DNA of 64,000 nt from Antedon mediterranea (lineage: Eukaryota; Echinodermata; Crinoidea; Comatulida; Antedonidae), in the NCBI RefSeq assembly GCF_964355755.1, contig NC_092675.1:29288912-29352911 (forward strand). Direction: 5' to 3'. Positions 3,501 through 52,512 of this stretch are shown in pieces; positions within the stretch are counted from its first letter, which is position 1; each line of letters begins with the position of its first letter. The translations under genes were made by a program, and so were the position numbers. The notes beneath the pieces are model-generated. The model was not told the DNA's origin, searched no databases, and was given only the letters and a program-made list of their open reading frames with translations.

Positions 3501-6500
3501 ATCAGGAAATTTGTGGTGGTACAGCAAATACAAAATAAGTTATTTTACTTAAAAAATTTATTTAAAAAAAACAGCCCCTGGGTAAAAGAATATTGGAAAT
3601 GTCTGTATAATTTTACAATTTTTACAACAATAATTTATCATTCCAACATTTTTATAAAAGTTAAGAAATGCTTAAAATTGGATTATTTATGATAAAATGT
3701 TTAATTTAATGATTGTAAATGTTTTTTAGTACTGTTTGTAGTACTAAATGAATTCAGAAATTTCTTCTGAAGAAGCTGTCTGTGTAAAGAACAAAATAAA
3801 AACCGTTTTTACAAATTTTTAATCCAATTGGTTTGTTAAAAAGAAATTTCTAAATTGTTTAATTCAATGTATTAATCACTGTAGTTTGATATGCCGCTGA
3901 TAAAAATCGTGAACAGTCACTAATTACTAACAATTGCTGTTACAAGTTCCTGGCACACAAGTACTTTTCACTACTCATGTTCAATTAATTATTTATAGCC
4001 TACATAATTAGCAGTCACCATAATGAATTAATTACCTGTTGTGATGTGTTATCAAGTTTGCTAATATCCGTGTCAGCTAGCGATGTTGATCTCAAGGAGC
4101 GAGGTGTTGGCGAGAGTGCAGGTGATCTCGCTGATGGCGACCACGGTGGCGTGTCCGGGGACAGCGACACGCTGCTATCCCACGTATTCTCGTCTGCGGG
4201 CTGGGTTGCGGACTGGTTAGCAATATCCTGTCATAAAATAACAATTATTATTTTTTTGATACATTACTTCTAACACAAGGCAAACACTTCCATAAATTAC
4301 AGTAATAACTGATTATTATTGTTGATTTATTACTGCTTTTCGTCGCAGTAATGAAACAATGTTTATTTTAGTAGAAGAACAATAATTATCGTTTTAAGTA
4401 AATCTCTATTTGTCTTTCTCAGGGGAAAATGTAAGGGTTGTGCTTATGGCATTTCCCGCCTTTTGACAGTTGAAATGCAATTATGAACTACTCTTTGATA
4501 TTTTTTTTTGACTGTTTGAAATATCTTGAGCCCGCCTCTGTTTTTAATTATTATTATTAACCACATTACAAATCTTCTAAAAATTGGCAACAATATAATA
4601 ATATCGCCTTGAGTTAAAAAGATCTAAAAATAGAACATTTAAGTAATATAGTTATGACTCATACAAAATTATTTAATTTACATTTTTCTAAATCTTTCTG
4701 TATATTAAAACAGATAAATTAATTTTAAAGGTGCAAAAAGGTGTTCAGTTTTGTGGGATTTAAGTAAAACATTTTATTGTTTTAGTCGAAATACCAATTA
4801 AAATAAAGAACTTTATAAACATCTTCATACCTTTTCCGAAAAACTAAACTTGAGCTGTTTATTAGCTGGTGAAAGGAGTCTATCATCAATGCTAGACCAA
4901 TTATTGGCTGGAGACTGGAGTCTATCATCATCAGTTGAGATGTTTGCCATGCTCTCTTGTGAAATTGGACTCTTCAGCTGATCAAAGGAATTTGGGGATG
5001 TTACGGATGTTTTCCTAGTTGAACTTGCACCCTCTAGTGGTGTACTGGTTTTCACTGCTGGAGATATTGGACTCTTTAACTGATCAAATGTATTTGGAGA
5101 TGTTACAGCTGTTGTCTTAGTTGAACTTGCACCCTCTGCTGGTGTACTGGTCTTCATTGCTGGTGATATTAATAATGAAGGTGACAATGTGTTCTCCTTC
5201 ATCTTTGTGTCCGTGTTCTTTGCTTTGTTGTCAATGGACTGGAATTCCTTTCGATTCGCTTCGATGGAAGCTAACAGATCATCAACATCTTTTAGTTGGT
5301 CATTATCATCAGAAAAATCCTGTAAAAAGTTAATACAAAACACACGATAAAAATCATAAATGCAGTTGTGCTGGGCGGCATTCAAAGTTGTCCAGACAGC
5401 CTACAAGTTATTTTAAGACCTTTTACCAGCCAAATTTCAACACAGCATTCAATCTAGACAGGTATCTCTGGGTACCTGTAACTGCTAATTTTCCACACCC
5501 ACTGAATGTGCTGTATCGCAGCTACCAAGCAAACATTTTATGGCCACAAGGCCTAATAAAACCTAAAGCTATGACTACACTATTAATATATGGACATGAT
5601 GATGTCATACCACTACCATATTTGGGCATATCACTACCATATTTGGGCATATCAATAAACTAAATGTTAAATGTTTAAAATAATTCTAACCTCCCACTCA
5701 GAATCTGACGAGAGTTCTCCGACATCAATATCAGATTCACTCTTCTTCCTCTCTCTCAGGCTTCCACCTGGTTTTAGTAGACTCATAGATTTTTCTGGTT
5801 TCTTTTTTTCTTCTCCAGTGGAATTAAACGTGCTATTCTTGCTTGCATTCAGTGAATCAGATTTCCCATATTTCTCATTTTCTTCGTCATCAGACACGAA
5901 TGGAGATACTGGTGCTATTCCCACAACAGGTTCTTTATTTCTGAAAACAAAAGAGAGTAAATGTATGTTAAAATAGATACAATACAATACACTTTACATT
6001 TACAATAAGTTTAATAGAAATGAAAGTGTTTTTACTTTTTTGCTTGTTTTTGTATTTTTATGAATGTTTTTTGAAGATTTTTTGTGTGGATATTTTCTGA
6101 TATATGGATTGAAATGCTATATTATATCTTTATGTGCTACTTGGTAAGAGGATTCACAGGCTCTTGTCTTAGGGATTTAGTTCCCTTTTGTGTTCCTGCC
6201 ACTTACTTTGTAGTTGTTTGTTATTTGTTGTTGTTTTGATTGGCAATAAAGAATAAGAATCAGAAAGAAATTATATAAAAAGTGTTTTTCCTCTCCATCG
6301 ATTGGAGGAAAATCCTTGAATCTATGCATCAACAATTACCTTGTTAGTTGAAGCTTAGCCACAGGTGCTGCTGCCTCTAGTTCTCTCCTAGCCTGAAGCA
6401 AACCAAGGCCAGACAAACTCTTTCCATTAATGTAGTGAACCTGATCACCAGGCTGAATAGAGCCTTCAACATCAGCAGGTAATCCTGGAATAAGATCACT

Positions 6501-39300: not shown

Positions 39301-42300
39301 CATGCACATCACATTTTTTTCACATAAAGTTTAAAAGTGTAGATAAGAATTTTTAGAAAAATTGTATCTTTATATATTCTTTCTTTGACCTATAATAATC
39401 TATAAAAATATAAAATTATTAAAAATGTACTGATGTACATCATCATGTCCATATATGAGCACATCATTTTTTGTCACATAAAGTTTGGTAGTGCAGACAT
39501 AGCTTAATTGTGTCTTATCTGCCTATGTATTTTAAATTCATTGGACGTCAATTACTGCTTATATTTTGGACCTAATAAACAAGCAATGCTTACCTTTTGC
39601 TGTAGTTCCATCTTCATTACACTATGCTTAAGTTGCTTCTTACTTTGTTTCTGAAGATCAATGTATTCTTTTTTTAATTGTAACCATTCTGTCCTATAAT
39701 AAAATATAAAGTAGTCATGGGAAGTGGGACGTCAGTCATGAGCCTCAGCTAATCAGAGCTTGTGGAATTCATTGCAGGAATACAGTAGAACCCCTATTGG
39801 GGGGGCACCTTCTGGACCCATCCAACTATCCCCTTAATAGGCATTTCCTTGGCCATAGTGTGAAAAAAACATAGATTGCTTCTTTGTGATAACTAATGTC
39901 TATTGAGTCCAACAAATGATACAATAAAACAACTTACTTTGTGATAACAAACGTCTAGTGAGTCCAACAAATGATACAATAAAACAACTTACTTTGTGAT
40001 AACAAACGTCTAGTGAGTCCAACAAATGATACAATAAAACAACTTACTTTGTGATAACAAACGTCTAGCAAGTCTAACAAATGATACAATAAAACAACTT
40101 ACTTTGTGATAACAAACGTCTAGCAAGTCTAACAAATGATAGAATAAAACAACTTACTTTGTGATAACAAACGTCTAGCAAGTCCAACAGATGATACAAT
40201 AAAACAACTTACTTTGTGATAACAAACGTCTAGCAAGTCCAACAAATGATACAATAAAACAACTTACTTTGTGATAACAAACGTCTAGCGAGTCCAACAA
40301 ATGATACTTACTTTGCTATGACTCTCAGCTGATACTGACAGCCACCTTTCAACTTGTTTGCTTTCTTCTTCCTCTTTCTTTTTTTCTTTAATTTTTCATC
40401 ATCATTTTCACCCATGTCTGAATCTGTAATCTTTTTCTTCTTTTGTATCACTGTTTTCTCTTCACCATCCTCCGATTTTCTTTTCTTTCCTTTTTGTTTT
40501 TTCAAAGTCTTTATATTACTTTCTTCTATTTCTACACTTCTTTTTTCTTCATCTTTTATCCCAACCTCTATTTTTTTTTCATTCGATTTTTGTTTCTTAC
40601 TCTTCTTTTTCTGCTTTGTATCTCCCGTATTTTCTCCCTCTTCGTCGTGGCTTCTTTTTCTTTTGCTCTTTTTTACTGGTTCTTTGTTTTCTAGATCATT
40701 CTTACATTCTTTCTCCGCCGCTTCTCTTTCATCTTCTTCTTTCAGCTTTTCTTCTAATAACTGCCTTTGTCTTTGTACCTTATATGGCTCTGGATTGGAA
40801 TCAATGCTAATTGATTTTCCTTTTCTCATCGTTGGGAATTTTCCAGGTTTATTTGTGGCATTTAGAGGTGGATTATTTAACAACTAAAAATAAAAAAATC
40901 ATTTCACATTGAAGGACAATTTTCTTTTGACTTTTTAGTTGATTGTCAAGCTTGGTTCCTACTACTGTATAGGATACAACACGTGAGTGAGTTTAATCAA
41001 TAGCTTGTGATTGGTCAAATCTCCTTGCATTGAATTCTAGTGACAACCAAGCTTAACTGTTAATTTAATGTTAAACAATATAAATTAAATTTAAAAATCC
41101 TGAAATAAATAATTCTCAATTTTAATGAGTACGGCTTTTCTGTCCAAGCTATCAACTTCTATAGCCTGGAATGGACTATTTTTAACTATTATAGGCCATT
41201 TCTGGGCATAGTTAAAAACAATGAATGGCAAACAAGCTATTTATTATTTGTCTGGGAAACACAATGTACATACGTTTTTGTCATTCCATGGAAGGTAAGA
41301 TATTTGAATTACTGTAAATATAAACAAATTCAATTACCTTACACGCCCTTTTTGCTTCTTCTGGTTTTTCAAACTCAATGAATGAGAATCCCTTGATATC
41401 ACCAGTAGTCTTGTATCTAGGAATACTGACATAGGTTACCTTGCCACAAGTTCCAAACACTTTCTGTAACCAGTCATGATCAGCTGTCTTTGGCAAGCAT
41501 TCCTTAAAAACAAAAACAAAATACATATCTTAAATAGATAAAAGCCCTAATACATGCTTTTGTTTGAATACTGGGCCTCGTTGCCAGGAGTGTTAATTGT
41601 GAAAAAACATCTAATTTCAATTATTTTAGATGAAAATTCTCTAGGCTAGGCCTAGCTAGCCCTAAGCATAAATCGTCCAGATTTTCGGGGGGAAATAACC
41701 AATTTTTAGGCGGGGATCTGCATTAAAAATCGGGGAAAATCGGAACAAAAGCCACACATTTCGGGGAACTTGGGACCTCTGGATAATAGGTGCTGTCCAT
41801 ACTACAAACTGTGCTGCTGAAGTGCATGATGGGAGGGAGATAAGATAATAAGATTTATAAAGCGCACATCCACAAAGTGCTGAAGCCACTTAACAAAGCT
41901 TCTGTCCGCACGCCTTGCCTCTACACGTCTTTCCGAGATATTGCTAATAATCGTAGTTTAAGCAACAAAATAAAATAACACAAGAGAAATAATAATTTTG
42001 GAAATGTGTTTTTGAATTGCATACTGTACTGTACATATAAAGTATAAACAGTAAGATCAAAAGAGATACATTTAAATAACATAAACAAAAAGAAACAATG
42101 TAACTTACAACATAAACAGTGAGATCATCTATGTTGTACTTTGGCGACATCATTTGATTGATTCTACGTAATCTGGTTTTATCCTCACTTACCTGTAGTG
42201 ATAAAAAAAAAGCAAATACATATTCGCAAAATTAGTATTTGTAATTGTAGTTTCCTCAAAGAATAAAATAATATTCAGCAACAATTTTAAAGTTGTTCAT

Positions 42301-43262
42301 GTATGATATAATATTCAAAGAATAAAGATCCTATTACATGAATAAACAATATTTTTTTCATTTAATAAACACAGTTCATAACATTTTTTAATTTAAGTTT
42401 TCACGATGTCAGAAAATCCAGGAGCCTCACACATTAGATTTAATGAAAGTTTTCCAGTTTTAACTTTACAAACCTGTAGAAAATTAGATTTCTTGACAGC
42501 TTTTGCGACAAGCTCAGCATCTGTTGTCATCATCTTCAGTTTGTTAAATGACAGTAACACTGATATATCTACATCTAGAATGAAACAAATAAACTATATT
42601 CAAGTTCTGAAAACCTGTTATGTAAAAATGTGACCAGAACCTCATTGGTTTTAGCTTATAAGTTAAGGTAAACATATTTTATTTTCATTATAATTATGAG
42701 TACATGTTTTATATTGTGGGTTTAAAATCAGAAAGTTACTTAAAAGGCTGCAATAGAGAGCAAATCCAGGATTTTTTAAGCTAACAAATAATAGAGCAAA
42801 ATATATATTATATAACACCTAAATAAATTGTACCATTACACTCATACTTTTCATTATTTGTATAATACAGTAGTAATAAATTAGATATTAAAAATGTTTT
42901 ATCATACAAAACATTATTGTAGCCACTGTAACATTCACATTTATTGGGTGGTTGCTTATACATTATTGTAGCCTAGATTTTATTAGTTTTTTTGTTTTAA
43001 CTAATAAATGTAAAAAATAGGTTTTTTTTCTTCTTTCAAATCAAATTGACTATTTTGCTTAAATTGCATGTTTTATACACTTACATCTGTCTTTATCTGC
43101 CTCAATTTTTTGCTTCAAAAAGCGGTCTTTTCTTAAATTTGCATCACTAAAGTAAAATTTTAGTTGATCATGGATGTCAGACAACTGTTTCTTCGATCGT
43201 TTTCTTTTTTTCTTGTCATCTAAATTCTGATCATTCAAGTCTTTCTCAACTTTAACTGACAT
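36319..43262 (-). CDS. LARP7: La-related protein 7 (7SK RNA-binding protein)
   Basis: Ten exons join in phase: 43262-43085, 42574-42474, 42192-42109, 41502-41338, 40883-40312, 39693-39594, 39060-38932, 36982-36832, 36649-36552, 36384-36319, giving 547 aa (human 582). Order: La motif (QLKFYFSDANLRKDRFL, then YVDISVLLSFNKLK), RRM1 with RNP2 (DLTVYV) and RNP1 (KGFSFIEF), a Lys/Glu-rich linker of about 190 residues, and the C-terminal xRRM (STVIKIVSKD, PIAYLDLEDGDSKGFVRVK, KQYWEKLKADR). The C-terminus ASRSHIKFED matches the vertebrate end. The family caps and stabilises 7SK snRNA in the P-TEFb-inhibitory RNP. An in-frame stop shortly upstream of the ATG fixes the start. The long intron holds a MULE-like element, and the exon-5 donor is followed by a minisatellite that copies it. 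Confidence 0.95.
37031..37070. mobile_element. Hairpin MITE, left-arm fragment
   Basis: Only ACTCTGTCTACACTATCAAG and CTAGTTTGACAAAAAAA remain, in a LARP7 intron. Confidence 0.7.
37361..37960. mobile_element. 600-bp inverted-repeat element with 9-bp target duplication
   Basis: The ends CGCCGTGGTTAGGATTCCGG and its reverse complement head inverted repeats of about 90-100 bp with few mismatches. It is flanked by TTAAAAAAA at 37352-37360 and 37961-37969, a 9-bp duplication, although low-complexity sequence makes chance harder to exclude. There is no coding capacity. It lies in the LARP7 intron between 36982 and 38932. MULE-like by duplication length; a different family from the 44.5-kb element. 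Confidence 0.75.
38587..38698. mobile_element. Hairpin MITE, right part
   Basis: Core units and right arm (TTTAATAGTGTAGACAAAGC); left arm lost. Confidence 0.75.
39203..39349. mobile_element. Hairpin MITE, degraded
   Basis: Left arm GCTCTGTCTATACTATCAAA; right arm decayed to TTTAAAAGTGTAGATAAG. In a LARP7 intron. Confidence 0.75.
39435..39507. mobile_element. Hairpin MITE, right-arm fragment
   Basis: Carries CATCATCATGTCCATATATG and AAGTTTGGTAGTGCAGACAT only; 86 bp from the previous copy. Confidence 0.72.
39881..40310. repeat. 55-bp minisatellite carrying splice-donor motifs
   Basis: About eight units of 55 bp (starts at 39936, 39991, 40046, 40101, 40156, 40211, 40266, plus a diverged first unit) directly downstream of LARP7 exon 5. 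Each junction contains ACTTAC, which is GTAAGT on the LARP7 strand. Confidence 0.93.
40948..41054. mobile_element. Possible relative of the second MITE family
   Basis: Ends AAGCTTGGTTCCTAC and GTGACAACCAAGCTT form an inverted repeat of about 13 bp around 80 bp of sequence. Only the ends resemble 50418-50625. In a LARP7 intron. Confidence 0.45.
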
Positions 43263-44389
43263 GACTCTTACTTAGCAATCTGGAACACAATCACAATTTG
43301 CCTTTTTCTAGTATTAGCAACCTTAGAATATTTTATAAAAAAAAAGTTGTTGTATTAACATTCTTTTCATAATTAAAAGATCACAATTTTACCTTGCTAT
43401 TAAATGTATTTATTTAAAAGTAAATTAATATATTGTATTCAGGTATAAAAAATGTACCAAAAGCAGACAAAGGTCTGAAAATATTGTATTACAAATATTG
43501 AAACATTAAAAATGATGGATCAAATTCACAGCAAAACTACACATACAATTTAAACATACAGAAAGGCATATGAAAAAAAAAACACATTAAAATGTAACAG
43601 TATTGTACGGTTATTAGGCATTTGTGGGTTACAGTACTAACCAATCGTATTGAAAAAAAAACATGAAAAAAAATCATATATTTTTTATTAAAAATAACCT
43701 TAATCTTCAGTTTTGGAATAAATCTTATCTGCATTAAATATCACAATAACATTTTAAAATATAATATTAATTTTTTGATAATAATAGTTATTAAACTGGG
43801 CATTGATAGATTCGTAGTATGACCCGACCGATTAGTTTGTAGACGAGGTGACACGGAGCAAGTTGAGAACCGGGACCGAGTTGACACAGGGAGACTGAAA
43901 AGAAAAGGCACCGATTGATGTTTGTTTTGGCCCTTGCCTTGTATAGGTTGGTGTTGCCTGGCTGGTTTCTAGCCTAGCTAGGAATAGGAGGCCTATCAGT
44001 ATCTATTATTTTAACTAGCAGGCACTATCTCTATGCCTAGTCTAGAGTAGGCTTAAAGCTAGGCCCATCTATATCATTTATTAAATATAAATAACTACAG
44101 TAATATCAGAAGAATTAATCATTTATCTTCATTATAAACAAATAAGTTTAAAACCATACACGCAGGAAAAAGTTGTAAACAACACCAACGTTGAGCGGAC
44201 GCTTTGGTAGCCTTCACACTCGCTTCGTAAGTAATACATATGACTGGTGACTAGAGGCTAATATTATTTTTATTATTCAACATGTGCAACAGAGCAGAAC
44301 ATGTGTACGAACTACACACCCACTTTCTCCGCTAGTTGGTTAGAACATTTAGTAGGCCTACGCCTAAAAGGCTAAGACTATAGCATGCC
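43263..44389. other. Head-to-head spacer LARP7 / ZDHHC gene
   Basis: About 1.1 kb separates the two start codons, so the genes probably share a bidirectional promoter region. The LARP7 side is very AT-rich; the 43800-44390 half is richer in GC and contains several GCCTAGGC-like motifs. No coding exon, CpG island proof or clear core-promoter motif can be claimed. Confidence 0.5.
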
Positions 44390-47300
44390 ATGGATGTCGA
44401 TGCAAAAAAAAAGTTGTCGTTATTAGACGTTGTTCAAAATTGTGTTTCTATAGTTGATATTGAAGATCATGTGAAAAAGAACATAGACAAATTAAATCAA
44501 AGAGGTAGGCCTCCGGGTTTACGATGAAATCGGTCGCGTCTGAAATCGGTCGCGTTTGAAATCGGTCGCGATAAAATCAACTTCCGGTATTTTGTATGGC
44601 GCGCCGCTAGAGCTATAATCCTTTTGATGATATCGGTCGCGTTTGAAATCGGTCGCGTTTGAAATCGGTCGCGCTATTTTGTATGGATCGAGCGGGATGC
44701 ATGCTAGAACGGGATATACATTTTTCGTTTATATATATTTAATTGATATTTTCTAGGAACTAGATTATTTATGTGGATATTTTTTACTTGGTTAATAAAT
44801 ATTTATTATCAATCATTAAATTAATTTTTTTTTTTGTATTTCACAGGTCTCGGAGAAGGACGGTGTCTTTTCAAAATGGCCATTTCTAAACACGTTTAAA
44901 TATCATATTAGGCATAATGTTATATTAGGCATATAATAATTTACCTCTATTAATATGTACTGTAATTAATATATTATATAGAGAATATACGTCTGTCGTG
45001 TCTTTTATTACGCAAACAATTACGTAAAAGAGAACAATTTATTTAAAAACAAGAATTTTTACAATATAGCCCGTAAAGCCAGCGTATCAATTTTTATACT
45101 TATGCATACTGTGGCAGATTATATCATATCCAATTAACAACATACTATTCGATCACCTTATTTTTATTTCTATTTTCTAAGTGTATAATGATTATTGTTG
45201 AGGCAAATCACGTGTATGTTTTTATTTCTAATGTTTAAAATAGTTTTTAGTAAAATGATCATTATATGCGGATGGTTAACAGGCGAGTTACTGAAATAAA
45301 CCCCCGAATAAGCCATATTGGAGATGCGCCTTCTATGATCGTGCAGCTGTTTCCTCTAACAATACGTTATTTTGCTGACGGGGATTCCCCTTTTTAAAAA
45401 ACACGCACTAGTAGTGTGTCAAATCATGGAGAAAACACGTACGATCGTTGTCCATGGCGAGGTAAAGATGACGTCTATTACTAATAACCATACATTTGAA
45501 AGGTCTATAGGCCTCCTGCACGTGTTTTTGTGAAACGATCCAATGAGCTATAGATGCTCGACGCGATTATGAGATCATGTTCATTCATTCTTTATTTAGC
45601 CTTTAAAATCGAAATACATTTAAAACATAGGTAACCAAATCAAGACACGTGGAAATGTAAGGAGGCAAGGATAAGCAAAAGCAATTAAATCGCTGTAGCT
45701 AACAGGCTTGCTTATCCATAATAATTCCGAATAAAGCACTTTTTCTATAATTTGACAGTATGATTTATACGTATATACGTCGGCGATACTATAGATTTTA
45801 ATTTGAATATTTTTTATTTTTGTCTTCATTTATAATAATCATTTAATGTAAATAATTAAGTAAGTGCAACTCAGTGTCTCGCATTCATACGCCGTTCGTA
45901 AATCTAAACGTTTAAATATCAGTGCAGATTACCTCTTTGAGAATTGTGTCCACCTTTATTATCCATACATTATTATTCTCACATCTATCATCGGCATATA
46001 TTATCTATATATTTTATTAATATCCTAAAACCATACGTAATTGTTTGCATAATAAAAGACACGACAAACGTATATTCTCTAATTATAATATATTAATTAC
46101 AGTACATATAAATAGAGGTAAATTATTATATGCATAATATAACATTATGCCTAATATAATATTTAAACGTGTTTATAAATGGCCATTTTGAAAAGACACC
46201 GTCCTTCTCCGAGACCTGTGAAATACAAAAAAAAAATTAATTAATGATTAATAATAAATATTTATTAACCAAGTAACAAATATCCACATAAATAATCTAG
46301 TTCCTTAAAAATATCAATTAAATCTATATAAACGAAAAATGTATATCCCGCTCTAGCATGCATCCCGCTCGATCCATACAAAATAGCGCGACCGATTTCA
46401 AACGCGACCGATTTCAAACGCGACCGATATAATCAAAAGTATAGCTCTAGCGGCGCGCCATACAAAATACCGGAAGTTGATTTTATCGCGACCGATTTCA
46501 AACGCGACCGATTTCAAGCGCGACCGATTTCATCTGACACCGGCCTCCGGACCTAGGCTAGTAGTACTAGCTAGTAGTAAACATTCACTAGTAAGTAGGC
46601 TGATAACCTCATATCCAACAGCCGCATATTGCTTACTAAAGTATATTAATAAATTGGCATAAAAAATAAATGTTTTTATTTTTCTTTGTTTAGGTTGGCA
46701 TGGACTGACACCTCTTCATAAAGCAGGTTTGCGAGGTGACTCTAAAATAACAGAGTTGTTAATTAAATATGGTGCGGATGTGCATGTTGTAACTGACTAT
46801 AGTGAGACCCCTTTACATTATGCATGCAAAAATGGTAATTTAATGAATATTCATTTGATGATTGAGCATGGCGCTGATATACAGCAGTTGGATCAACATG
46901 GTCGCAATTCTCTTCATCATGCAGCTATGGGAGGCAGTGTGTAAGTGCCGGATCTTAACATTGCCGCTTTTGTTTTTTTTTATTTGTAAAAAATATTGGG
47001 GAAAAATTTGTACTGTACCTTCTTTACTAAATGGCGTATTCGACTACAGACTTTGACCTGGTTCACCATGCATATTTTTAAGTATGCTCTGTACTATGTT
47101 TTCCAGTGTTCTTTTGCCTTGTGTTGCGTGAAATCAAACTGATTTGTTTTCCCGTAGTGATGTTTGCAGCACTATTATGGTATCGGTTCCCATTTGTGAT
47201 TACGCAATACAGCACTTTGCGTCGATACGTTGATGCATTACGTTCTACAAATCAACTCTCACTCGGTTAAAATAGCAAGAAGTACGAATAAAAAAAGACC

Positions 47301-50300
47301 AGTCTAAAATAAGCTTTTTTAAACTTAAACAACTTGTAAAACATAAAAATGAGATATACCTGTATCTGTTTTTCTTTTAGAATGGTTCTGCATTATTTGT
47401 CCACTGTTCATAATATGGAACTAGATGTACCAGATAAATCGTAAGTAATAGATAAATCACATGCAAAGATTTTAGATATCTTTCTTGTTTTTTGATTTTC
47501 AATTTACAAAGGCAATGAAATATTTGAATATATTTTATTTATTTTTTATTTTCAGAGGTCAAACAGCTTTACATCTTTCATCTTACCATGGTTACATTGA
47601 CACAGTTGATTACCTGCTAAGGCGAGAGGTAAGCAGTGGTACAGTATAGTGGCCCCTAGTTTAGTGTGAGCCCTCCAACTCTGGGTAGTTATTGGGCCTT
47701 CTTATACTCTGAGGCCCCTGGGTTTAGCCAGTGTACACTCATAGCCATTCCACCACTGGAGGTAAGCATAGCTACACAAAATTGTTCACATCCATCATTT
47801 GACAATCATCACCACCAATTATTAGTTTTATCTGTATCTTAAATTATTCTTGTATTTGCTGATATTTTACACTAGTCTTTTTAGTACCTACTGTAGGATG
47901 TCATGTTAATTTATTTGCGTATGCCTTTGAGTTTCTTCTGGCACTTTCATCAATTATAACCTTCTTATTAGTGCACTGTAGTTGCAAAAAAAATTGAAAC
48001 TTGAGAAAAATTATGTAATCCATAATTTAATAAGTCTAGCTCATCACAATTCAAAGTTCCCTATTTTAAATCTACATATATTTAAATTTAAAAACATTTA
48101 AAATGGTATATAATGAACACAAAGATTAACAAAATAAACATATTCTTTCAAAGCGATGCAGTCCTCTTGTAAAAGATATGAATGGCAATACAGCACTACA
48201 CATGACATGTATAAATGGCCTGCAGCTATCTGCTTGGCAGATACTACAGAGTGGCACATGTAGCATGCTACATATAAGAAACAATGATGGCAAGACTCCA
48301 CTAGATATAGTTGCTGACAAAACAAAATCATCATATCAGTAAGTATGCATTTCAAGATAAACAACATTCTTTGGAATTGAAATGACAGTGATACTGATAA
48401 TATGAAAACATTTGAACGATCTCGCTGTTAAAATAAAACTTTCTGTATCTTTAATTACTTTAAAAAAATCTGTAAAACGTTAGCCATTTAAACAACTTAC
48501 TTTTGTTATGCTCAATATTTTATCTCTTTCTTTTTTTGACTTATTTTATTGTTTATTGTTTTATACAGTATATCCTTTTATTTATTTCTGCATATTTGTA
48601 TTGTAGGGGCCCCTCATGAGACAATCTATTGCTTCTAGTACGGGCCCCAGTTATTATTGTCAAATAACTGAATAAATGTGTATGAATGAATCAACATTGG
48701 AAATGCATTTTGAAACTCTGGTGAATAAAGTAAAACAGCAATGATATAAAAGATAAAATTTAATTAATTATACAGGAATATGAGACAAAATCAGATTAAT
48801 CTAAAATAAATATCTTATTGCACTAATGTTTCAGTTGTAAATTAAAAAAAATATATACATGATATAAGGATTGTCCTTTATCTAAAGCTCTGTCAACACT
48901 ATCAAACTTTATGTGACTAAAATGTGATATATATGATCATGATGATGTCATATCACTACCATATTTGGTATCTCAATTGGGATTTGTATCTTGCATATCA
49001 CTACCATATTTGGACACATCACACTTTTTTTGTCAAATTAGTTTGATAGGAAAGACAGAGCTTTACACCATTCAAATCCCATTCATTTTTTGTCATTTTT
49101 ATTTTACATTTTAGGCATCGTATGCTCTTGAAAGAACTGGACTACTGGGGCAAAAGCAAGCTTCAAAATAAAGCACCCAAGGGTCCACTATTTACTTGGT
49201 ATTTTCTCATGTTCTTTCCATTTCTTGGCATGCTTTCTATCATTCTTTGTGGACAGATTGCTGGGGCCTACAGAGGTGTATTTTCCATTATTGCTACAAT
49301 AGTGTTGAGTGTATTTGTCAGTGGTAAGATTCACAGGTTAAAGCATATAAGCAGGTATGTTTATATGTGTGTGGTAAATTTTTATGTTGCCAAGTTTTTC
49401 GATCCTAAAGACTGAATAAATTTCATTAATTTCATTTATTTATGGTCAAACACAGTTTGAAATGATTTTCATTAGTTCAAAGTTAAAAATTCAAATAAAT
49501 TCTTCAATATTATGGTTCTTATGAACGCCACCAGCCGGCGTTTTAATTTTTGTCCTAGATTCCATCTCAAGTATATGTATGACATGCTTTGTGTGCCAAA
49601 ATATTTATCTTTTTACCAATATTAAGTTGCTTTCTACAACCTATACTAATATAAATATATGTAAAATAATCTGATTTACTCTATTATAACATAACCTTTT
49701 TTTCAGATGGCCAAATCCAATACATGCTGGTGCCTTTGCTGCTGGCATACTGCATACAATAATTTGTTATCTTTTTTTAATTCTTCCTGATATCCTTTTG
49801 AATGCATGACTCAGTATTTAGTAGTAAACCAAATAGAGAAATCAATACACTCAACTTTCCCAAAGTTAGACACCCTAAAGCTCTGTCTACACTATTTTGT
49901 GATAACAAAATGTGATGTGCCCATATTATGGACATGATGATTTCATATCAGTACCATATTTACGAATATCACTGCCATATTTGGGCACAGCACATGTTTT
50001 TTGTCAAACTAGTTTGATAGGCCAATCTAGAGTTTTATGATTTCAAAATGCAATAATGATAATATTGCCTTAAATTATTATGTTTTTAGAGATTGAATCT
50101 TTCTTTCTTCCTAGGAAGAACAATACAATAAAATAAACTCAAATACTTTTTCCTTAAAAACATGTGTACTTCTCTGGCCGCATTTCTATGCATTATGTTT
50201 TAATATACCAAGCTTGGCTGTCATGTTGTACCTGTATCTGCTGGTGTTGACCATTGACCCAGGGTTATGTCATTCATCAAGGGAGGGGCCAACTCTCAGT

Positions 50301-51773
50301 CAGCCCTACATGACTGTTGAAGATATTGCTAAGGGTATTTGTGATAAACAAGATTTCTGTTCTAGATGCGAGGTAAGATTTTACTATTTTATCATATATT
50401 TTTTCATGTTGATCCTTAAGCTTGGTTCCCACTAGCGACGCAACGTAGCACAACCTATGCAACGTAAGAAAATGCCCTTCCAATAATTGTGTTTGCCCCC
50501 GTCTGCGTGAAATCAAACCTACAATGTTTGCAGCACTGTTCCCACTTGTGATTACGCAATACAGCACTTTGCGTCAATACGTCATTGTGTTACGTTATGT
50601 TACATCGCTAGTGGGAACCACACTTTATAAAACATCGGAATAATTAGTGATTGCAAAACTTTGAAATGCTATATTCTACTCTATTATAGTTTATATATTT
50701 TTTTATTTTGACACATTTAATACCTGAATTCAATAAGCCAATTATTCTTACCCTAATCTAACATTCAAAAATTAATTTCAAATTGAAAATTGTGCTTCTC
50801 TTTGCCAAAAGTGATAATTTTTGTTCATTTTCACTTCTTTCATTTAATTCTAACACATTAATTTTAAATAAGCATAAAAGTCTAGCAAGTACAAATATTT
50901 ATATGTATTTATTCAGAATCTATTATGACACTTTGACATGAAATAAGGCTTCAAGTACAGGTGTTTTGTGGTGCCTTTAGCCGTTATTCCTCTATCAATA
51001 AGATTTAATGGCTTATGGCTTGTCTTTTCGAGCAAACCATCAAAAAGTGTCCCTTAAGTGGCCTCTTTTTAATTGTGACACATTTTTTAATGTGACACAA
51101 TTGCTTTAGTAAATTGATAAGGTTTAGAAATCGGTCAATAAAAACTAGGTATTTTATTCTTGAGGTCTCTTCTGTGAAACATTTATTATTTTTATTGATG
51201 CATAAAACCACTAACGTGAAACATTCCACGCTGTGTTTATATGGTTAATAATTATGTTTAATAAAAGTATGGTTTTTACTTTTACAGATAATAAGACCTG
51301 TAAACGTGAGACATTGCACGCTGTGTGAAAAGTGCTATTATGGTCTTGATCATCACTGCCTGTTTCTTCTCACATGTGTGGCAAAAAACAACCATCGTCA
51401 TTTCATCATGTTACTCGGACTCGTTGTTCTCGCTCAGTCTTTGTTCATTGTGTATGGTATTCAATACATACTAGTGTTGTATGATCCATTACCGGAAACT
51501 TTTATGTTAATTAAAACTTTAATTCTGGAAGAATCGTGGTTCGTTGTGTTAGCGGGGTTAAATGTAGCGTCTATCGTTTGGGAAACATGTTTACTTATTT
51601 ATCAACTGCGTATGATCGCTAATGGGTTGACAACGTTTTATGCGCTAAGGCTGTTATCAAAAGATGTGCGTCGTCTTACTACGTTTCAGAAGATGCAGAA
51701 TGTTAGGAATTTCTTAATGGGACGTAAAACTATTTCAGCTGCTGATTTAGGCACTGCATTTTTCAAAGTTTGA
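44390..51773 (+). CDS. Ankyrin-repeat DHHC palmitoyltransferase (ZDHHC13/17 group)
   Basis: Nine exons join in phase: 44390-44504, 46694-46940, 47381-47440, 47556-47628, 48154-48338, 49115-49354, 49707-49789, 50170-50372, 51288-51773, giving 563 aa (human ZDHHC17 632, ZDHHC13 622). About seven ankyrin units (GLTPLHKAGLRGD, SETPLHYACKNGN, GRNSLHHAA, GQTALHLSSYHGY, GNTALHMTC) precede four hydrophobic segments, a DPG motif, the Cys-rich DHHC domain (CSRC, RHCTLCEKC, LDHHC) and two more hydrophobic segments. It should S-acylate proteins at Golgi or vesicle membranes. Oddities: after DHHC the usual PWVxNC reads LFLLTC, and TTxE reads TTFY; the catalytic Cys is kept. An in-frame TAG two codons upstream fixes the start. 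Intron 7 is AT-AC. Intron 1 holds a 2-kb foldback transposon. Confidence 0.9.
44508..44516. repeat. 9-bp target-site duplication, left
   Basis: GGCCTCCGG, identical to the copy at 46542-46550 on the other side of the foldback element. It starts four bases after the exon-1 end of the ZDHHC gene. Confidence 0.88.
44517..46541. mobile_element. Mutator-like (MULE) foldback element, non-autonomous
   Basis: A 2,025-bp element flanked by a perfect 9-bp direct repeat GGCCTCCGG (44508-44516 and 46542-46550). Its terminal inverted repeats are about 510 bp (44517-45026 and 46031-46541), highly similar along their length. Each arm opens with tandem copies of GAAATCGGTCGCG, in two clusters, which look like transposase-binding sites. 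The right terminus reads GGTGTCAGATGAAAT on the minus strand; the left is slightly diverged. The roughly 1-kb centre has no long ORF. Nine-bp duplications with long inverted repeats fit the Mutator superfamily. It sits in intron 1 of the ZDHHC gene, 13 nt past the exon-1 boundary. Confidence 0.88.
46542..46550. repeat. 9-bp target-site duplication, right
   Basis: GGCCTCCGG, identical to 44508-44516. Confidence 0.88.
47103..47260. mobile_element. Fragment of the second MITE family
   Basis: Shares GCGTGAAATCAAAC, GTTTGCAGCACT and GTGATTACGCAATACAGCAC with 50418-50625 in the same order; the AAGCTTGG ends are absent. Confidence 0.62.
48882..49065. mobile_element. Hairpin MITE, full copy, opposite orientation
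   Basis: Arms AAAGCTCTGTCAACACTATC and TTTGATAGGAAAGACAGAGC; the core is inverted relative to the 3-kb copy. Confidence 0.8.
49790..50169 (+). other. U12-type AT-AC intron
   Basis: The intron begins ATATCCTTTT at 49790-49799, the U12 AT-AC 5' consensus, and ends in AC at 50168-50169. A U12-like branch site, TTCCTTAAA, is at 50150-50158, so the branch A lies about 12 nt from the acceptor, in the usual 10-16 nt range. No GT donor exists before the in-frame stop at about 49807, and this choice keeps phase (G|TT) and continues a hydrophobic segment into LWPHFYALCF. A hairpin MITE (49875-50037) takes up nearly half the intron. Confidence 0.82.
49875..50037. mobile_element. Hairpin MITE inside the U12 intron
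   Basis: Left arm AAAGCTCTGTCTACACTATT; right arm decayed (TTTGATAGGCCAATCTAGAG). It occupies about 43% of the AT-AC intron without touching its splice or branch sites. Confidence 0.8.
50418..50625. mobile_element. Second MITE family (AAGCTTGGTTCCCACTAGCG)
   Basis: Inverted ends AAGCTTGGTTCCCACTAGCG and CGCTAGTGGGAACCACACTT enclose about 170 bp rich in ACGCAA and TTACG words. Lies in the last ZDHHC intron. Fragments of the same sequence occur elsewhere in this window. Confidence 0.72.
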
Positions 51774-52347: not shown

Positions 52348-52512
52348 TTAAAGCTCTGTCTACACTATCAAACTTTATGTGACAAAAAAAAAATGTGATG
52401 TGCCCATATATGGATATGATGTCATATCACTACCACATTTGGGCACATCACTATCATATTTGGGTACATCACAATTTTTTGATCAAACTATATGATAGCG
52501 TAGAAGGAGCTT
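52348..52512. mobile_element. Hairpin MITE, full copy
   Basis: Clean left arm (AAAGCTCTGTCTACACTATC) and slightly decayed right arm. In the ZDHHC-RAP1GDS1 spacer. Confidence 0.82.

Follow-up and report, generated by a model that had tools for sequence, protein, structure and literature searches.

From the sequence of a 64-kb stretch of Antedon mediterranea DNA (hereafter the window, meaning the whole stretch that was analysed), we infer that intron 7 of an ankyrin-repeat DHHC palmitoyltransferase (ANK-DHHC) gene is an AT-AC intron excised by the minor spliceosome, and probably an old, inherited one (probability roughly 0.96). The initial annotation had placed such an intron at 49790-50169, behind an exon ending in CTTCCTG and with its AC 12 nt past a branch site, and both coordinates and motifs proved exact. 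Support for reading it as U12-dependent comes from the splice signals, the restored reading frame, the snRNA genes of the genome and the presence of an AT-AC U12-type intron at the matching place of a ZDHHC17 paralogue. That it represents a real AT-AC U12-type intron of the known kind is predicted with high confidence. The features concerned are as follows.

44390-51773, + strand: predicted ANK-DHHC palmitoyltransferase gene, 563-aa open reading frame (Pfam Ank_2, 8.3e-27; DHHC, 3.4e-24)
44390-44504, 46694-46940, 47381-47440, + strand: exons 1-3
47556-47628, 48154-48338, 49115-49354, + strand: exons 4-6
49707-49789, 50170-50372, 51288-51773, + strand: exons 7-9
49707-49789, + strand: exon 7, 83 nt, coding for a membrane segment (hydrophobic by hydropathy)
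50170-50372, + strand: exon 8, 203 nt, coding for the membrane segment that follows, a DPG motif and the beginning of the Cys-rich domain
49790-50169, + strand: intron 7, predicted U12-type AT-AC, 380 nt, phase 1; 9/9 match at the donor and 8/9 at the branch site, terminal AC, 563-aa frame on removal
49790-49799, + strand: predicted U12-type 5' splice site ATATCCTTTT, 9/9 match to RTATCCTTT
50150-50158, + strand: predicted U12-type branch site TTCCTTAAA, 8/9 match to TTCCTTRAY; branch A probably 50157
50168-50169, + strand: predicted AC 3' splice site, 12 nt past the presumed branch A, frame kept
49876-50020 (approximate bounds), + strand: palindromic MITE-like repeat within intron 7, with at least 40 genomic places, the best of 90% identity

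The ANK-DHHC gene

Joining of the nine exons yielded a single frame of 563 codons from the ATG at 44390 to the TGA at 51773. Ankyrin repeats are followed by membrane helices and then by the DHHC domain, with Ank_2 and DHHC both above the Pfam cut-off and the DHHC motif intact (DHHCLFLLTC). The remaining seven introns are ordinary GT-AG introns with pyrimidine-rich acceptors.

The enzyme had been named ZDHHC13/17 in the initial annotation. While the ankyrin repeats and DHHC domain were indeed found, the name is too precise, as the protein is about 24% identical to each of human ZDHHC13 and ZDHHC17 and a clear ZDHHC17 gene is present elsewhere in the genome. The two human proteins are 51% identical to each other, and for this reason the window gene is, judged by its predicted protein, a divergent ANK-DHHC gene that is not clearly either of the two.

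Several further features were observed in and around the gene. Intron 1 (44505-46693) holds an apparent inverted-repeat insertion, noted by eye, with CTCGGAGAAGGACGGTGTCTTTTCAAAATGGCCATTT at about 44850 and the reverse complement of this sequence at about 46180. A 24-nt stretch of exon 9 around VRHCTLC (51303-51326) is duplicated with 92% identity at 51213-51236, in intron 8 and 90 nt upstream of the exon 9 original. On the - strand, a La-domain gene at 40000-43265, whose exon 1 matches Pfam La at 7e-10, is arranged head to head with the ANK-DHHC gene, and one of its exon ends is adjoined by a tandem repeat with a unit of roughly 60 bp near 40000-40300 (by eye).

Splice signals of intron 7

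The upstream exon ends ...CTTCCTG at 49789, giving the junction G|ATATCCTTTT, and the donor core ATATCCTTT agrees with RTATCCTTT at all nine positions. U12-type branch sites follow TTCCTTRAY, about 9-16 nt upstream of the 3' end; in TTCCTTAAA only the last base departs from this, being A instead of C or T. Splicing would join CCT G|TT CTC TGG to encode P-V-L-W, which places the intron in phase 1. U12-type introns avoid phase 0, and the phase of the window intron agrees with this. Set against animal U12-dependent AT-AC introns in general, it shares the terminal dinucleotides, the donor and branch consensus, the branch-to-acceptor distance and a phase other than 0, and apart from the final A of the branch site nothing substantial sets it apart. 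In most genomes minor introns account for less than 0.5% of the total (PMC10639083), and AT-AC introns make up 8-47% of U12-type introns in the listed animals that have them and 26% in human (PMC7367187, Table 2).

The donor alone would prove nothing, since RTATCCTT is common in this AT-rich DNA (8 occurrences in the window against 6 expected); it is the combination of donor, branch site and acceptor that is informative. When the region was shuffled 20,000 times with its dinucleotides preserved, a perfect donor followed by branch site and acceptor, in any frame, arose just once. When both strands of the 64-kb window were scanned in the same manner, every donor/branch/acceptor combination ended at the intron 7 acceptor. 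Donors of the 16 GT-AG introns of the window gene and the ZDHHC17 paralogue matched the U12 consensus at 3-6 of 9 positions. Another copy of ATATCCTTTT lies within intron 5, at 48570, and was rejected as a decoy, the intron 7 acceptor being its sole potential partner, across exons 6 and 7.

Many of the genomic places of the MITE-like repeat match on both strands, and relatives occur in the window at about 48883-49065 and 52349-52510. The copy at 49876-50020 makes up more than a third of the length of intron 7.

Alternative splice choices

The initial annotation had claimed that the frame is lost with every GT-AG choice. When the choices are enumerated, however, seven GT-AG pairs leave it open, all of them from the GT at 49730 or 49766. 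Use of either would remove a membrane segment wholly or partly, with the choice at 49730 cutting out a strongly hydrophobic stretch. As donors these two GT sites reach -3.6 and -3.9 bits, against 4.9-9.4 bits (leave-one-out) for those of the 16 GT-AG introns in the two ANK-DHHC genes, and the acceptors reach -1.2 bits or lower, so that such an intron is extremely improbable. Many GC-AG pairs likewise keep the frame open and are not credible on the same grounds, the best GC donor scoring 0.7 bits. It belongs to the best rival of all, a GC-AG intron of the major spliceosome at 49804-50114, which would add 23 residues between the membrane segments, leaves an open frame of 586 aa and has a fair, pyrimidine-rich acceptor (TTTCTTTCTTCCTAG). 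Its donor, AAT|GCATGA, is however far below the range of real introns, the perfect U12 donor and the branch site would be left to pure chance and the ZDHHC17 paralogue would not be matched; we regard it as very improbable, if slightly less so than the GT-AG choices.

With the AT-AC donor retained, the acceptors at 50118 and 50121 are also in frame and were rejected for want of a good branch site. Scoring of all in-frame splice choices at the protein level did not discriminate among them, and the AT-AC junction was not the best one against the ZDHHC17 paralogue. The membrane segment is too divergent for protein similarity to single out a junction, and this scoring was therefore not counted as evidence.

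Minor spliceosome components

Genes for U12 (125.7 bits), U6atac (136.6 bits) and U4atac (97.6 bits) snRNAs were detected in the genome together with two U11 genes (88.6 and 82.9 bits), and a PDCD7/U11-59K relative is represented by two exons. U6atac has one further match, a weak one (33.7 bits; G000:C7:8523554-8523655, - strand), which is probably a pseudogene. The U11 genes start with AAAAAGGGC, and CCUUUU of the intron is complementary to AAAAGG at the U11 5' end. The U12 gene holds GTAAGGAAAA, with AAGGAA of the snRNA complementary to UUCCUU of the branch site, and U6atac holds GAAAGGAGAG on its own strand, with AAAGGA complementary to UCCUUU of the donor. In the proposed mechanism, the U11/U12 di-snRNP would recognise AUAUCCUUUU and UUCCUUAAA, U6atac would then pair with the donor and exon 7 would be joined to exon 8 through the split GTT (Val) codon, in a membrane segment that precedes the DHHC domain.

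The ZDHHC17 paralogue and probable common descent of the intron

The ZDHHC17 gene (G000:C7:24706000-24715999) lies on a different chromosome from the window gene. The 528 residues reconstructed for it share 53% identity with human ZDHHC17 and 23% with the window protein. The gene contains an AT-AC U12-type intron of 486 nt in phase 1 at 4841-5326 of the locus (CCAT|ATATCCTTTTTA...TTCCTTAACCATTTAACAC|ATG), with 9/9 matches at both sites, a perfect TTCCTTAAC branch site, a branch A situated 11 nt before the intron end and a reading frame that stays open across the splice. A scan of viral contigs with this paralogue as query found no relative, and a search for COX1 yielded no mitochondrial sequence.

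The introns of the two genes agree in subtype, phase and protein segment. The preceding exon codes for the same membrane segment in both (83 nt in the window gene, 101 nt in the paralogue), and the intron before that exon interrupts an Arg codon in phase 2 in both. They differ in length (486 against 380 nt), in the perfect branch site of the paralogue and in position, as their junctions lie about 4 codons apart in the alignment. The alignment of the membrane segment needs a gap, and equivalence at the residue level is uncertain by this same distance. The offset, and the low identity of the proteins, would fit two introns that arose independently. Such an origin is nonetheless unlikely, given that minor introns are rare and that it would have to account for the same subtype and phase, for a shared location between neighbouring membrane helices and for the Arg-splitting phase 2 intron just upstream. 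The two AT-AC introns are thus likely one inherited intron, identity of position not being proven, and the match in type, phase and place indicates that the window intron is probably old.

U12-type introns in other DHHC genes

Introns of two further DHHC genes of the same genome served as controls. These genes, L005 and L006, are taken to be ZDHHC5/8-like and ZDHHC9/14/18-like, respectively. L005 has a GT-AG U12-type intron at 1677-2451, in phase 2 and after the DHHC motif, whereas the window intron is AT-AC, in phase 1 and before the motif. L006 has an AT-AC U12-type intron at 2209-2840, with TTCCTTGAC. Both introns appear to lie 16 residues before GLAGFH and in phase 2, and because residue and phase seem to coincide, the comparison suggests one ancient intron that switched subtype.

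A U12-type intron of ZDHHC8, of GT-AG type and common to fly and human, has been published (PMC2831892, Table 2). Compared by gene and subtype, the L005 intron agrees with it; the window intron has in common with it that a U12-type intron lies within a DHHC palmitoyltransferase gene. In a search confined to papers, no report was found on ZDHHC13, ZDHHC17 or HIP14 together with U12 or minor introns.

Implications for the DHHC family

The window intron provides a rare and well-supported marker for the history of the palmitoyltransferase family, and it gains interest from an AT-AC intron being common to two deeply diverged paralogues. If these inherited it, the AT-AC type was kept through divergence down to 23% identity. 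It seems rather probable, though far from assured, that an ancestral ANK-DHHC gene carried an AT-AC U12 intron where two membrane segments adjoin ahead of the DHHC domain, which would be older than the split of ZDHHC13/17 from the divergent lineage and would recur in other animals, and that a second ancient U12 position, the one in phase 2 before GLAGFH, would be common to ZDHHC5/8 (GT-AG) and ZDHHC9/14/18 (AT-AC). In this one genome four DHHC genes each carry a U12-type intron, and two of these introns differ in subtype while apparently sharing their position in the protein; the DHHC family offers a convenient test set for the retention of minor introns and for switching between AT-AC and GT-AG.
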